Shown here: one piece after another, positions 21,741 to 28,444 of the stretch
Layout of the letters: every line of letters starts with the position of its first letter
Numbering within the stretch: position 1 is the first letter of the stretch
Assembly (NCBI GenBank): GCA_015492495.1
Contig: WGEY01000013.1
Location: forward strand, 1 to 35,211
Direction: 5' to 3'
Length of the DNA: 35,211 bases
Origin: Deltaproteobacteria bacterium
GTDB lineage: Bacteria; Desulfobacterota; GWC2-55-46; DRQE01
The notes under the pieces: generated by a model
Database searches by the model: none
Told to the model about the DNA's origin: nothing
What the model saw: the letters and a program-made list of their open reading frames with translations, nothing else
Made by a program: the position numbers and the translations under genes

Positions 21741-22901
21741 ATGGTTAAGAACATACTGATGATAAGCGGTGAGGCCTCGGGAGACCTCCACGGTAGTTCG
21801 CTCATAAAGGCCCTGAAACGGATTGCCCCTTCGGTCAGTGTAAAGGGCATGGGCGGAAGGAGGATGAGGGAGGCCGGGCTTGAGGGGATCGATTCGACAA
21901 AGCTTTCGGTCGTCGGCATTGTAGAGGTTTTCACGAGGTTCTCCGACATACTGCACGCCTTCTCAGAGCTGAAGAATCTCCTCTGCAGGGAGAGCTTCGA
22001 CTGCGTGGTGCTCATAGACTATCCGGACTTCAACCTCAGGTTCGCAAAGGTGGCAAAAAAGAAGGGCGTGCCGGTGGTGTATTACATAAGCCCGCAGGTG
22101 TGGGCCTGGAGAAGGAACAGAATATACAAGATAGCAAAACTCGTCGATAAGATGCTTGTGGTATTCCCCTTCGAGGAGCCGCTGTACAGGAAGGTCGGGG
22201 TGGATGTCGAATACGTGGGGCATCCGCTTGTAGGCGAAGCGGTCTGCAACAAGACGAAGGAGGAGGCAAGGGGCGCCCTCGGTGTGCCGGCGGGAAGGAC
22301 TGTGGTGGCCGTACTGCCCGGAAGCAGGGTCGAGGAGATACGGCGCCATCTCGACCCCATGGTCCGGGGGGTCGAACTCTTTCAGAAGGAGGCCGGGGCC
22401 CCGGTGGAGGTGTTGCTGCCCGCGGCAGAGGGCGTGGAAAGGGCCTTTTTGGACGAGCTCATAAGGGAGTGTCCCCTCGAAGTGAGGATCATCCGGCGGA
22501 ACACCTACACGGCGCTGAGGGCTGCTGACGCAGCGGTGGTCGCCTCGGGTACCGCCACGCTCGAGACGGCCCTCATGGGCACGCCGATGGTCATAGTCTA
22601 CAGGGTCTCTCCCCTCTCTTATCTGATTGGAAGGCTTCTCATAGGGGTGGACAATATCGGACTGCCCAACATCGTCTGCGGAAGAAGGATAGTGCCGGAA
22701 CTCATACAGAACGAGGTGACCCCTGAAAACATTGCTCGGGAGCTTTCGGGCATCCTGAGAGATCCGGAAAGACGCAGGACCATGGAAGAGGGGTACAAAG
22801 AGGTAAGGGGTAAGCTTAGGGGGCTTTCCGCGCCGGAAAGGGCCGCGGCGGCCGTCTGCAACCTCGTATGTGGATCCGTTGCTGAATCGACCGCCTCGTA
22901 G
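21741..22901 (+). CDS. lpxB: Lipid-A-disaccharide synthase LpxB
   Basis: ILMISGEASGDLHGSSLIKALKR...GMGGRRMREAGLEGI...YYISPQVWAWRRNRIYKIAKLVDKMLVVFPFE...EYVGHPL...LPGSRVEEIRRHL...VASGTATLETALMGTPMVIVYRVSPLSYLIGR. Confidence 0.97.
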   Translation: MVKNILMISGEASGDLHGSSLIKALKRIAPSVSVKGMGGRRMREAGLEGIDSTKLSVVGIVEVFTRFSDILHAFSELKNLLCRESFDCVVLIDYPDFNLRFAKVAKKKGVPVVYYISPQVWAWRRNRIYKIAKLVDKMLVVFPFEEPLYRKVGVDVEYVGHPLVGEAVCNKTKEEARGALGVPAGRTVVAVLPGSRVEEIRRHLDPMVRGVELFQKEAGAPVEVLLPAAEGVERAFLDELIRECPLEVRIIRRNTYTALRAADAAVVASGTATLETALMGTPMVIVYRVSPLSYLIGRLLIGVDNIGLPNIVCGRRIVPELIQNEVTPENIARELSGILRDPERRRTMEEGYKEVRGKLRGLSAPERAAAAVCNLVCGSVAESTAS

Positions 22902-22995
22902 CAGAGTGCGGGTAATGTGGTCGCACCGATTCCGGGCGGGCCGCTGGCGGTTTTTCGCTGACCGGATCCGCTTTGCGGAAGAGGGGTCGTAGCTC

Positions 22996-24789
22996 ATGAA
23001 TATATATCTTAGACTGCTTAAGTATCTGCGTCCGTACTGGTCGAGGCTTGCGGCCGCCGTTGTGTGCATGGTCTTCTTTGCCTTGACCAACGGGGCCCTG
23101 GCGTATCTTCTCGGGCCGGCCATAAAGATGCTCTTTACGAGTGACTCCAAGGAGGGCGTAAGCGTCATCCCGTTTGACCTGGTCACCATACCGCCGGACA
23201 AGATGTCATTTGCGGTGCCGCTTGCGATAATCGTCATAGCGGTCGTAAAGGGGCTTTCCTCCTACGGCAATACGTATTACATGGGTTATGTGGGGCAGAA
23301 GGTGATCTCCGACCTGAGGAGGGATCTGTACGGGCACATACTGAGGCTGCCGCTTGGTTACTTCACCTCGAACCCCACCGGCAGCCTGACTTCGAGGCTT
23401 ACAAGCGACGTAAACATGCTCCAGAAGACCACCGCCGCCGCGCTTACCAATGCGCTCAAGCAGCTTTTCAGCCTTCTTGTGCTCGTCGGGATAATAGTGG
23501 GCATGGACTGGAAGCTCGCTGTTATCGCCTTCGTAGTCTTTCCCGTGGCCGTGTATCCGGCGCTCAGGCTCGGACGCAAGATGAAGAGCGTCTCGAAGAA
23601 GGGCCAGGCGACCATGGGGGCCATGACATCGCTTCTGCACGAGGCCATCTCCGGCGTGAGGATAGTAAAGGCGTTCTCAATGGAGGATTATGAGTCCGGC
23701 AGGTTCAACGACGAGAACAGAAGGTTCACGCGCCAGATGATCAAAACGGTAAAGGTCCGCGGCATATCCACCCCGCTCATGGAGACACTCGGCGCCGTGG
23801 GATTCGCCCTGACCATCTGGTATGCATCGTACAGGATCTCGCACGGCACCCTGAAGCCCGAGTCGTTCATCTCCTTCTTCGCAGCGGTGGTCATGCTCTA
23901 TCAGCCTATAAAGGCGTTGAACGGCGTGCACCTAAACATACAGCAGGGCCTTGCCTCGGCCATGAGGATCTTCGAGGTCATGGATACCCCGGTCGAACCG
24001 GTCGGATGCGAGGGGGCCGGAGCAAAGAAGACGCTCAAGGGGCTCAACGACTCCATAGAGTTCAGGGACGTTCACTTCAGTTACGGCAAAGAAGAGGTCA
24101 TAAAGGGCATAACGTTAAAGGTCAGGAAGGGAGAGAAGATCGCCATCGTGGGTTCCAGCGGCGCGGGCAAGACCACCTTCGTCAACCTCATTCCGAGGTT
24201 CTATGATGTAACCAGGGGACAGATCCTCATAGACGGAACCGACATAAGGGAGCTTTCCCTCGAGTCACTCCGCAGCCAGATAGCCATAGTCTCGCAGGAT
24301 GTCATACTCTTCAATGATACCGTAAGAAACAACATCGCCTACGGCGAGCCCGGAAAGAGCCTCGAGGAGACAAAGGCCGCGGCCCTTGCCGCCAATGCGC
24401 ACAGCTTCATAACGCGGCTTCCGCAGGGTTATGACACTCTCATAGGAGAAGGCGGGGTTAGGCTTTCCGGCGGGGAGAGGCAACGCCTTTCCATAGCAAG
24501 GGCCATACTCAAGAACGCGCCCATTCTCATAATGGACGAAGCGACCTCATCGCTTGACACCGAATCCGAGTACGAGGTGCAGAAGGGGCTCGACAACCTT
24601 ATGAAGGGCCGTACCAGCTTCGTCATAGCCCACAGGCTCTCCACGGTCAAGAACGCCGACAGGATAGTAGTCCTTTCAGACGGCGCCGTAGTGGAGTGCG
24701 GCACGCACGAGGAGCTCATAGGCCGCGGCGGCGAGTATTTACGCCTCTACAACATGCAGTTCCAGGGCATGGAGGAAGGGATCGCCTGA
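22996..24789 (+). CDS. msbA: Lipid A export ABC transporter MsbA-like (fused permease-ATPase)
   Basis: N-terminal TM domain plus IVGSSGAGKTTFVNLIPRFYDVTRGQILIDGTDIRELSLESLRSQIAIVSQDVILFNDTVRNNIAYG...LSGGERQRLSIARAILKNAPILIMDEATSSLDTESE. Confidence 0.94.
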   Translation: MNIYLRLLKYLRPYWSRLAAAVVCMVFFALTNGALAYLLGPAIKMLFTSDSKEGVSVIPFDLVTIPPDKMSFAVPLAIIVIAVVKGLSSYGNTYYMGYVGQKVISDLRRDLYGHILRLPLGYFTSNPTGSLTSRLTSDVNMLQKTTAAALTNALKQLFSLLVLVGIIVGMDWKLAVIAFVVFPVAVYPALRLGRKMKSVSKKGQATMGAMTSLLHEAISGVRIVKAFSMEDYESGRFNDENRRFTRQMIKTVKVRGISTPLMETLGAVGFALTIWYASYRISHGTLKPESFISFFAAVVMLYQPIKALNGVHLNIQQGLASAMRIFEVMDTPVEPVGCEGAGAKKTLKGLNDSIEFRDVHFSYGKEEVIKGITLKVRKGEKIAIVGSSGAGKTTFVNLIPRFYDVTRGQILIDGTDIRELSLESLRSQIAIVSQDVILFNDTVRNNIAYGEPGKSLEETKAAALAANAHSFITRLPQGYDTLIGEGGVRLSGGERQRLSIARAILKNAPILIMDEATSSLDTESEYEVQKGLDNLMKGRTSFVIAHRLSTVKNADRIVVLSDGAVVECGTHEELIGRGGEYLRLYNMQFQGMEEGIA

Positions 24790-24799
24790 GACACAGCGG

Positions 24800-25485
24800 A
24801 TGAAGAAAAGGATACTCGACAGGATTACGGTTGCTCTTCTGCCACGCCTTGCCCGGTGGATGATCAGGTTCCTCGCGCTCTCGATGCGGTTCACCTACGT
24901 AAACTTCGATTCGTACCGTAAAAGGCTCGACAAGGGGGGCCAGATCATCCTGGCCTTCTGGCACGGAAGGCTTTTGATGATGCCCTATTCATACCCCGGC
25001 AGGGGGATCACCGTTCTGGTGAGCCAGCATCGCGACGGGGAGCTGATCGCAAGGACCGTAAAGGGCTTCGGCATAGAGAGCGTCAGGGGTTCCTCGACGC
25101 GGGGATGGTTCGGCGGCATAAAGGGGCTCCTTAAGTCCGTAAGGAGCGGACGCGACATAGCGATAACACCGGACGGGCCGCAGGGGCCGAGGTACAAGGC
25201 GCAGATGGGTACGATACAGCTGGCCGCAACGACCGGCCTTCCCATTTACCCCATGGCCTTCGGCGCATCTAAAAAAAAACCCTTAAGAGCTGGGATGCCT
25301 TCATCATACCGTATCCCTTTTCAAGGGGGGTTTTCATATGCGGCGAACCCCTGACGATCGACAAGGGCGCGGACGAACGGGAGAGGGAAGAGGCGAGGCT
25401 CGAGCTGGAGAAAAGGCTAAACGAGTTGACCCGGCGGGCGGATGATTTTTTCAAGGGAGAGGCATCCCGTAGGCGTAATCCGTGA
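24800..25485 (+). CDS. DUF374 lysophospholipid-acyltransferase-like protein, interrupted by a -1 frameshift at an A9 tract (25271-25279)
   Basis: Frame 0 (24800-25354): MKKRILDRITVALLPRLARWMIRFLALSMRFTYVNFDSYRKRL...IILAFWHGRLLMMPYSYPGRGITVLVSQHRDGELIARTVKGFGIESVRGSSTRGWFGGIKGLLKSVRSGRDIAITPDGPQGPRYKAQMGTIQLAATTGLPIYPMAFGASKKK; after A9 the -1 frame reads TLKSWDAFIIPYPFSRGVFICGEPLTIDKGADERER...RRRNP* to 25485, the expected family continuation. Confidence 0.82.
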
Positions 25486-25614
25486 TGTGCGGTGTGCGAA
25501 GCTACACAGCCAAGGCATGTAACGCAGGATGCCGCGGCCGAGACGCTCTGTGCCATCGAGCGGCGGACGGCTCCCGGGCGTGCGGTCCTTTTGAACGGCC
25601 CTGCAGAAAAGTAT

Positions 25615-26931
25615 ATGATGTACGTCATCTATGACATTATCCTTCACCTCTCCATCCTCGCCCTGACTCCATACTTCCTGATAAAGATGCTCTCTGCGGG
25701 TAAATACCGCAGCGGTATACCCGAGAGGTTCGGCATCATCAAGGACGGAAAGCTGAAGGCCGTCAGTGGGGGGAGGGTCGCCTGGTTCCATGCCGTGAGC
25801 GTGGGTGAGACCAAGGCCGTCCTGCCGCTTGTAAAGGCGTTTCGGGAGAAGAACCCCGGCACGAAGATAGTATTTTCGACCGTTACGAAGACCGGCCACA
25901 GGGTGGCGAAGAAGGAGGGCGCGCTCCTGATAGACACGCTCATCTACTTTCCCCTGGACCTTTCGTGGATTGCAAGGAGTGTGGTAAGGCGATTGAACCC
26001 CTGCGTGTTCATCGTCGTTGAAAAGGAGCTCTGGCCGAACCTCATCCGCCACCTCAGGGGCCGCTCCATACCGGTTGTCGTTGTGAACGGCACACTCTCG
26101 GAGAGGTCGTTCGAAAGGTACAGGAGGTTCTCCTTCCTCTTTGGGAAGATGTTCCGCTCTCTCAGCGCCTTCTGTGCGCGCACCGGGGAGGACGCAAAAA
26201 AGGCCCTCGCACTAGGGGCCGAACGCAGGAGGGTCGTTGTCACCGGGAACCTCAAGTTCGACATGGAGCCGAGGCCGCTGGATGCAGCCGAAAGGGAGCT
26301 CCTCGTAAGGTCGCTCGGTATAGGACCAGAGGATCGGGTGATCGTGGCGGGGAGCACGCATTCCGGAGAAGAGAAGGTCCTTCTCGATGCTTTCAAGCGA
26401 CTAAAGGGAGAGTTCAAGCGGTTGAAAATAGTCCTAGCGCCGCGACATCCCGAAAGGTTCGACGAGGTCGAATCCATCGTCAGGGCCTCGGGCCTCCCGT
26501 ACATAAGGCGCAGCCGTGGGGCTAAGGACAGCGGGCACGACGTGGTCATTCTCGATACCATAGGCGAGCTCGGCATGGTCTACAGCCTCGCCACAGCGGC
26601 ATTCGTAGGAGGCACCCTCGTCGACACAGGCGGACACAACCTTTTCGAACCCGCGCTTTACGGCAAGCCCGTACTCTACGGACCCTACCTGAGAGACTAC
26701 CTCTACATGGCCGAGATACTCGAGAAGGAAGGGGCGTCGTTCAGGGTAAAGGAGGGGGATCTGGCCTGCCGCCTAAAAACGCTACTTAAAGACCATGGGC
26801 TGCGGGCTGAGATGGGCAGGGCCGCGGCCCGGGTCGTGGAGTCCAACAGGGGGGCGACCGCAAGAACCCTCGATGTGATCGAAGCCGTCACAGCGGGTAG
26901 AACACCCGCCGCGGCGGAAGGCGCAGGGTAG
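25615..26931 (+). CDS. waaA: 3-deoxy-D-manno-octulosonic acid transferase WaaA/KdtA
   Basis: RVAWFHAVSVGETKAVLPLVKAFREKNPGTKIVFSTVTKTGHRVA...VVEKELWPNLIRHLRGRSIPVVVVNGTLSERSFERYRRFSFLF...GNLKFDMEP...VLAPRHPERFDEV...FVGGTLVDTGGHNLFEPALYGKPVLYGPYLRDY. Confidence 0.95.
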   Translation: MMYVIYDIILHLSILALTPYFLIKMLSAGKYRSGIPERFGIIKDGKLKAVSGGRVAWFHAVSVGETKAVLPLVKAFREKNPGTKIVFSTVTKTGHRVAKKEGALLIDTLIYFPLDLSWIARSVVRRLNPCVFIVVEKELWPNLIRHLRGRSIPVVVVNGTLSERSFERYRRFSFLFGKMFRSLSAFCARTGEDAKKALALGAERRRVVVTGNLKFDMEPRPLDAAERELLVRSLGIGPEDRVIVAGSTHSGEEKVLLDAFKRLKGEFKRLKIVLAPRHPERFDEVESIVRASGLPYIRRSRGAKDSGHDVVILDTIGELGMVYSLATAAFVGGTLVDTGGHNLFEPALYGKPVLYGPYLRDYLYMAEILEKEGASFRVKEGDLACRLKTLLKDHGLRAEMGRAAARVVESNRGATARTLDVIEAVTAGRTPAAAEGAG

Positions 26932-26934
26932 GTT

Positions 26935-28005
26935 ATGCAGACCATCAGGGAAAACATAGAGCAGGGCCTTGGTGAAAAGAGGATAGGCCCCTTTGCGCAC
27001 GCCCTTCTCTATGCGCTTTCGCTTGCATACGGCGCTGGGGTAAGGGCGAGGGCCGCTCTCTACCATACCGGCATCATCAGGTCGAAAAAGCTCCCCTGCA
27101 AGGTCATATCCGTCGGGAATATAACGGTCGGCGGAAGCGGCAAGACCCCCATGGTGGTGCATATCGCCGAACGCCTAAGTGAGACGGGGCTTAGGGTCCT
27201 GGTGCTGAGCAGGGGATATAAGCGGAACGGAAGCGGAACAGAGGTCGTCGCCGACGGCGAGAAGGTACTGCTCGACCCTCGCAGGGCCGGTGACGAGCCC
27301 TACCTCATGGCCACGAGGCTTGACGGCGTACCCGTCATGGTGGGTACCGACAGGGTCGAGGCCGGGTTGTGCGGCATAGAGAGGTTCTCACCTGACGTGA
27401 TAATCCTTGATGACGCCTTCCAGCATCTGCGGATAAAGAGGGACCTCGATATAATGCTTGTTGACTCCAGGAAGGGCTTTGGAAGCGGCTATCTTCTTCC
27501 CAGGGGGCCGTTGAGAGAGCCTTTGAGCGGTATAAACAGGGCAGACATAGTAATGATCAAAGGCGAGGGCGGATTCAGGCTGCCGTGGAGCGTGGCGCAG
27601 GAAAAACCCGTTTTCCGTTTTTCCTACACACCAAAGGGCCTGGTCGGCCCGGCGGGGGAACTTCCCGGGGGCGTGGACCGTCTAAGGGGCAGAAGGATTG
27701 CGGCGCTCGCCGGCATAGCGGACCCGACTTCCTTCTTCCAGACGCTCGAGCGCCTGGGTGCGGTGGTTACAAAGACGCTCGCTTACCCGGACCACCACTG
27801 GTATACCGCCGGAGATGTTGAGCGTATCAAGAAGGAGGCCTGTGGGGCGGGCCTCCTGGTCACCACCGAAAAGGACCTTGTAAGGCTCGACGTCCACGGC
27901 CTGGGAGAGGTCCCTGTGGCAGCGCTCGTGATAGATGTAGATGTAGAGGATGCCGAAAGGTTTCTTACGCTGGTGCGCAAGAAGCTCGGGCTTCAAGGCA
28001 GTTAG
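26935..28005 (+). CDS. lpxK: Tetraacyldisaccharide 4'-kinase LpxK
   Basis: KKLPCKVISVGNITVGGSGKTPMVVHIAERL...VLSRGYKRNGSG...DDAFQHLRIKRDLDIMLVDSRKGFGSGYLLPRGPLREPLSGINRAD...ALAGIADPTSFFQTLERLGAVV...YPDHHWYTAGDV. Confidence 0.96.
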   Translation: MQTIRENIEQGLGEKRIGPFAHALLYALSLAYGAGVRARAALYHTGIIRSKKLPCKVISVGNITVGGSGKTPMVVHIAERLSETGLRVLVLSRGYKRNGSGTEVVADGEKVLLDPRRAGDEPYLMATRLDGVPVMVGTDRVEAGLCGIERFSPDVIILDDAFQHLRIKRDLDIMLVDSRKGFGSGYLLPRGPLREPLSGINRADIVMIKGEGGFRLPWSVAQEKPVFRFSYTPKGLVGPAGELPGGVDRLRGRRIAALAGIADPTSFFQTLERLGAVVTKTLAYPDHHWYTAGDVERIKKEACGAGLLVTTEKDLVRLDVHGLGEVPVAALVIDVDVEDAERFLTLVRKKLGLQGS

Positions 28006-28068
28006 GCGATGGAGAGGGGTACCTGGGCGCCCACCGTATCCACAGGCCCTTCGGAGGCCTCAACGGGG

Positions 28069-28096
28069 TTGCACGGAACGCAGATTGTGGTAAAAT
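28069..28096 (+). promoter_or_regulatory. Putative sigma70 promoter for the structured RNA upstream of selC
   Basis: TTGCAC (28069-28074), 16-bp spacer, TAAAAT (28091-28096). Confidence 0.5.
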
Positions 28097-28102
28097 GTAA
28101 GT

Positions 28103-28302
28103 AGGGAATGGGTTTAACAAGCATTGCTCGAACTAACGCGTGCGTGCGTAAGCCCCATCCGCAGGGTGCGTACAAACCACCTAAGGAGGTCCGGAGGAAG
28201 TGCATGGAAAGTACTCAGTCCAGGAGGAGTGAGTACGGAAGTGCACGGACATAAGGACCGGCGGATTGGAGGAAAGCTGTTCGGAGCAATGCTTGTTTTT
28301 TT
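28103..28302 (+). ncRNA. Candidate structured small RNA (GGA-rich) with closing-stem intrinsic terminator
   Basis: Closing stem AACAAGCATTGCTCGAAC (28116-28133) pairs with GTTCGGAGCAATGCTTGTT (28279-28297), 18 bp with one bulged G, followed by a T-run (28296-28302); internal nested helices GTGCAT/GTGCAC (28200-28205/28241-28246) and GTACTCA/TGAGTAC (28211-28217/28230-28236); repeated GGA/GGAGG motifs in loops. The 5' end is inferred from the promoter. Confidence 0.6.
28280..28302 (+). terminator. 3' arm plus T7 tract of the candidate RNA (pairs with its 5' end)
   Basis: TTCGGAGCAATGCTTGTTTTTTT. Confidence 0.6.
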
Positions 28303-28347
28303 GTCGTAATTCCTGCCGCTGTTCCGGACAATCGCCCCATAAGCATG

Positions 28348-28444
28348 GGAAGGGGATAGGGCCCGGTGGCCCTGCGGGTCTTCAAAACCCGGCCGTCGCC
28401 CTTAAGCGGGGACCGGAGGGTTCGACTCCCTCCCCCTTCCGCCA
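28348..28444 (+). tRNA. selC: tRNA-Sec (anticodon UCA), CCA encoded
   Basis: GGAAGGGGATAGGGCCCGGTGGCCCTGCGGGTCTTCAAAACCCGGCCGTCGCCCTTAAGCGGGGACCGGAGGGTTCGACTCCCTCCCCCTTCCGCCA: 8-bp acceptor stem, CGGGT-CTTCAAA-ACCCG anticodon arm (UCA), long variable arm, GGTTCGACTCC T-arm. Confidence 0.95.

Follow-up and report, generated by a model that had tools for sequence, protein, structure and literature searches.

We describe here a structured RNA, X, whose gene lies at 28103-28302 of the window (the whole 35,211-nucleotide stretch of deltaproteobacterial DNA that was analysed). There is good support for a free-standing RNA gene here, equipped with a promoter of its own, a closing stem of 18 bp and a terminator, and X belongs to a genuine structured, covarying family, in which compensatory changes exceed those of both shuffled and slid-partner controls. 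While the existence of X is well supported, its function we infer from genomic linkage. Tentatively, and at somewhat less than an even chance, X would be a stand-alone, highly structured, trans-acting RNA, linked to 6S RNA and forming a ribonucleoprotein particle (RNP), that acts around RNA polymerase.

A sequence-only reading of the locus had proposed a TTGCAC-N16-TAAAAT promoter, an 18-bp pairing of the RNA ends that runs into seven Ts, and the internal helices GTGCAT/GTGCAC and GTACTCA/TGAGTAC, all of which are present (Table 1). The promoter boxes occupy 28069-28074 (TTGCAC) and 28091-28096 (TAAAAT) with a 16-nt spacer, and within the window's class 40 of 42 loci have a similar promoter 15-39 nt before the stem. 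The closing stem consists of 18 bp and one bulged G, formed by AACAAGCATTGCTCGAAC (28116-28133) with GTTC-g-GAGCAATGCTTGTT (28279-28297), and its 3' arm is continuous with the seven Ts at 28296-28302; in most class loci a run of at least four Ts occupies the corresponding place. The minimum free energy of the window RNA is -85.4 kcal/mol, compared with -61.4 +/- 3.9 kcal/mol in dinucleotide shuffles (z -6.1; 0 of 200 shuffles as stable). The single-sequence fold is stable beyond chance, but its ...CCACCUAAGGAGG... segment folds differently between members; for this segment covariation supports the pairing GGGUG-c-GU/AC-CACCU (P4) and leaves UAAGGA unpaired. A protein-coding reading was set aside: the RNA is covered by short open reading frames only (on the plus strand, the longest that falls mostly inside it has 63 codons), and the family varies by pairing and carries indels. 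The placement between lpxK and tRNA-Sec held as well, with a PF02606 match (317.9 bits) preceding the RNA gene and tRNA-Sec beginning at 28348. By Pfam, the DNA upstream of the RNA (21741-28005) holds a lipid A cluster of lpxB, an ABC exporter, a DUF374 protein, a kdo transferase and lpxK.

Table 1. Features of the X locus, in coordinates of the window
Feature	Position	Strand	Basis
Sigma-70-type promoter, TTGCAC-N16-TAAAAT	28069-28096	+	Read from sequence; similar promoters in class loci
RNA gene (predicted transcript limits)	28103-28302	+	Fold (z -6.1), covariance model R1, covariation
P1, 5' arm of closing stem	28116-28133	+	Sequence, fold; P1 pairs covary
P2 hairpin, ACGC...GCGU	28136-28149	+	Fold, covariation; 89.6% of cells paired (n = 74)
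P3, 5' strand CC.AUCCG, partner CGGAU.GG	28154-28161	+	95% of cells paired, almost invariant
P4 hairpin, GGGUG-c-GU-ACAA-AC-CACCU	28164-28182	+	Covariation (n = 74)
Unpaired conserved purine junction, AAGGA	28183-28187	+	Covariation model, member comparison
P5 arm: base GGUCC/GGACC, helices GTGCAT/GTGCAC and GTACTCA/TGAGTAC	28188-28259	+	Fold, alignment
P3, 3' strand CGGAU.GG; core motif of relatives CGACGGAUUGG-n-AAAG	28262-28269	+	Alignment, covariation
P1, 3' arm and T7; closing stem also an intrinsic terminator	28279-28302	+	Sequence, fold
tRNA-Sec (selC), neighbour outside the RNA	28348-28444	+	Flanking sequence of 24 of 41 class relatives has it too

The sequence-only reading had suggested a search for homologues and for covariation among them, and both were found. 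When 59 relatives were searched with a BLAST-type method, 41 genomes yielded matches at E <= 1, the weakest of these matches being short and some attributable to chance. Thirty homologues were extracted and aligned with MAFFT, yielding a covariance model, R1, of 187 positions and 33 pairs. R1 matches the window RNA, itself a member of its training set, with 162.5 bits (E 5.4e-42; matched core 28117-28299), and it detects X in 42 of 63 genomes of the window's class, with one copy each. A second model, R2, detects up to three copies each in 86 of 244 genomes of a second class, which we take to be Desulfuromonadia (the Geobacter group). The remaining 158 of these 244 genomes gave no match to R2, and a more thorough search left 29 of 38 without one; the RNA is not universal even within the second class. 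One of three genomes of a third class matched, as did 18 of 395 in an even sample of the phylum, a count that is a lower bound given the small number of candidates scored in each genome. Scanning 84,980 species by pattern returned 22 loci, all in metagenome-assembled genomes (21 titled Deltaproteobacteria and one titled 'bacterium'). The pattern scan of viral contigs returned no locus, and looking next to 6S RNAs in those genomes of the phylum sample that lie outside the second class added no members.

Common to the 30 aligned sequences is the core CCAUCCGCAGGGYGCGUNCAAACCRCCUAARGAGG ... CCGRCGGAUUGG-AAAAAGC, whose two parts are separated by a variable arm. The consensus consists of the closing stem P1, the small hairpin P2 (shifted in position in some members) and, joined in a three-way junction, P3, P4 and the P5 arm. 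An A-rich strand follows P3, and conserved unpaired purines follow P4. In the MAFFT alignment, whose structure was taken from the RNAalifold consensus, 94.1% of cells pair and 17 of the 33 pairs show double changes; covariation scores 0.272, compared with 0.161 for shuffled controls (0 of 500) and at most 0.079 for slid partners. Across 74 sequences from three classes, in an alignment that was fitted to the model and is therefore biased towards it, 92.1% of cells pair, 24 of 33 pairs change on both sides in a compensatory way, and the score is 0.417 against 0.180 (shuffled) and at most 0.102 (slid). The covariation is clearest in P4, where pair 63-79 is UA in 33, CG in 32, GC in 6 and AU in 3 of the 74 sequences. 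The junction that follows P4 reads UAARGAG in 29 of 41 class members and GAAAAAG in 33 of 51 others, while the P5 arm differs in length and sequence among members and has GG(Y)C/G(R)CC pairing at its base. Conservation over the structured core, with no short seed, suggests that the RNA binds a protein or RNP instead of acting as an antisense regulator.

The pointer to function comes from gene linkage in the second class. At 29 of 48 copies scanned, a 6S RNA (counting hits both above and below the gathering score) ends 2-13 nt upstream of X on the same strand. Second X copies within one genome often have their own 6S, as for L139 beside L136 in G475. The adjoining 6S is often a paralogue, and when 24 second-class genomes were searched, most proved to have a further 6S of higher score at a distance from X. 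This class also has free-standing copies preceded by promoter-like sequence of their own (L138, L145, L152, L153), and in the window's class X is not adjacent to 6S. A boxA-like sequence of the GTTCTTTGACAA type, a leader that we presume to be boxA as in rRNA antitermination, keeps its place some 190-200 nt before X, where the 6S-X unit starts (L094-L156), and also occurs 13-17 nt upstream of X in three free-standing copies; individual matches are often weak by shuffling, and it is their constant position that matters.

The arrangement of 6S and X varies among loci. The number of 6S RNAs ranges from two to four in several second-class genomes (e.g. G475, G123, G338, G374), which usually have a single high-scoring 6S and lower-scoring paralogues, some of them with no detectable X downstream. 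At L191 (G086:C1:55152-55330), a 6S paralogue is followed by a short hairpin element and a terminator instead of X, which has perhaps been lost or reduced there. At L116, the 6S RNA (1034-1214, 35.9 bits) lies 287 nt upstream of X, and the gap of about 285 nt (1215-1500) possibly contains another RNA. At L112, L114, L121, L123 and L135, the approximately 200 nt upstream of X have no Rfam 6S match and, on inspection by eye, show a closing-stem-like sequence in several cases; these are perhaps strongly divergent 6S RNAs.

Since the 6S-plus-X unit has been maintained and duplicated together, the partner of X is probably to be sought in the RNA polymerase/6S pathway. X would fold into a stable RNP and modify or accompany 6S-type transcription control, with the invariant P3/P4 core and the purine junction as its binding surface and the P5 arm as a species-specific extension. 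In the window's class, where X is free-standing, it would act in trans. With slightly less confidence, at about one chance in three, X would represent an unrecognised RNA class working with 6S on RNA polymerase, organised in Geobacter-type bacteria as a two-RNA unit of paralogous 6S and X and in other lineages as a separate X gene. Because X is repeatedly linked to 6S, and mostly to paralogous copies of it, the RNA polymerase pathway is our leading guess, level with a second one. Just as plausibly, X is a housekeeping-type structured RNA with an RNP of its own that is unrelated to RNA polymerase, as the raiA-motif RNA/ModT seems to be, and it follows 6S only through a shared boxA-type antiterminated transcript of abundant untranslated RNAs. 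Such a role would agree with the boxA-like leader, with conservation across the whole core without a seed, and with the occurrence, both in the window's class and in part of the second-class genomes, of free-standing copies that carry promoters of their own, and the 6S linkage could then reflect shared transcription instead of shared function. It accounts less well for a 6S neighbour that is duplicated together with X, and for adjoining 6S copies that are mostly paralogous.

Three further explanations are much less likely. The earlier proposal of a CsrA/RsmA-sequestering sponge drew on the GGA content of the window member, which is indeed high (13 GGA against 4.4 expected), and its genome encodes a CsrA (84.9 bits). 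Bacterial CsrA sponges such as CsrB and RsmX/Y/Z carry repeated, mostly unpaired GGA. However, over 92 members of the family GGA is near chance (mean 5.2 against 4.2 expected; only 5 of 92 above z = 2), the lone GGA present in 82 of 92 is base-paired inside P3, and the CsrB/C and RsmX/Y/Z models are unmatched. CsrA sequestration is thus not the family's function, and we consider a sponge of the CsrB/RsmZ kind highly improbable for X, though such a role may have been gained late, in the window species alone. A ribosome- or mRNA-directed RNA acting through an exposed UAAGGAGG, which matches the Shine-Dalgarno sequence, would suit the unpaired state of this segment in the covarying model and its presence in 17 of 41 class members, besides the more frequent UAARGAG. 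Yet UAAGGAGG is confined to the window's class: AAGGAGG occurs in 0 of 51 others, and the second class has the GAAAAAG-type sequence in its place, so that the match is not the family's function and this explanation is highly improbable. The last candidate, a divergent 6S RNA, shares with X its similar length and long closing stem, and in relatives X adjoins 6S. 6S RNA, which regulates RNA polymerase, has a large central bubble that mimics an open promoter, and a pRNA template; X has a covarying three-way-junction core in place of this bubble. Moreover, a standard 6S (78.4 bits) lies on another contig of the window's genome (G000:C32), relatives have 6S and X side by side as distinct RNAs, and no 6S match to X appears even at E 10. 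We therefore regard this possibility, also raised by the sequence-only reading, as extremely improbable.

Comparison with Rfam 15 (4227 models) assigned no family to the window RNA or to the scanned relatives, whether by gathering threshold or in E-value mode, and a scan of 28006-28347 up to E 10 gave neither 6S nor any other meaningful match. The families named beforehand as candidates (6S, CsrB, RsmX/Y/Z, SRP) were thus without a match on the window RNA; the SRP RNA of this genome, small and of the standard bacterial type, is encoded elsewhere (77.5 bits). The lack of an Rfam match at any threshold tried, together with strong stem covariation across homologues, supports the remaining suggestion of the earlier reading, namely a new class. 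Our claim of novelty is that X is found neither in Rfam 15 nor in the papers searched: the open literature searched, which mostly leaves out subscription papers, contains no description of X or of the 6S-X tandem. A Geobacter genome paper of 2009 lists, for G. metallireducens, 479 conserved nucleotide features, and proposes that those in multiple copies may be short RNAs (PMC2700814); X could be among these unnamed features. It is uncommon for a new bacterial RNA family to covary strongly and be widely distributed, and this one reaches apparently cultured Geobacter-type organisms, which makes it testable. Its linkage to 6S, in genomes that mostly have another 6S, would raise the question of why extra 6S RNAs are kept and what the attached RNA adds.

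Among known systems, 6S RNA resembles X as a stable-RNA gene of about 180-200 nt with a long closing stem and is linked to it in the second class, but it differs in fold and conserved sequence, shows no covariance model match and is present separately in the same genome. The CsrB/RsmZ-type sponges resemble the window member in being GGA-rich with some GGA in loops, whereas GGA repetition is not a property of the X family and their models are unmatched. The raiA-motif RNA/ModT (RF03072; PMC11706538) is, like X, a deeply conserved, free-standing, structured RNA found in a set of phyla; unlike X, it belongs to a different phylum, and its model is unmatched even at E 10. Structured RNAs other than 6S, such as Ms1, can bind RNA polymerase (PMC9130861, PMC11077062), and RIP-seq in other phyla found RNAs besides 6S bound to it (PMC11077062), which gives the RNA polymerase idea precedent rather than proof. 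Although they are reported in other phyla and were compared with X by the Rfam scan alone, Ms1 and the other RNA-polymerase-bound RNAs have the very mode of action that we propose for X.
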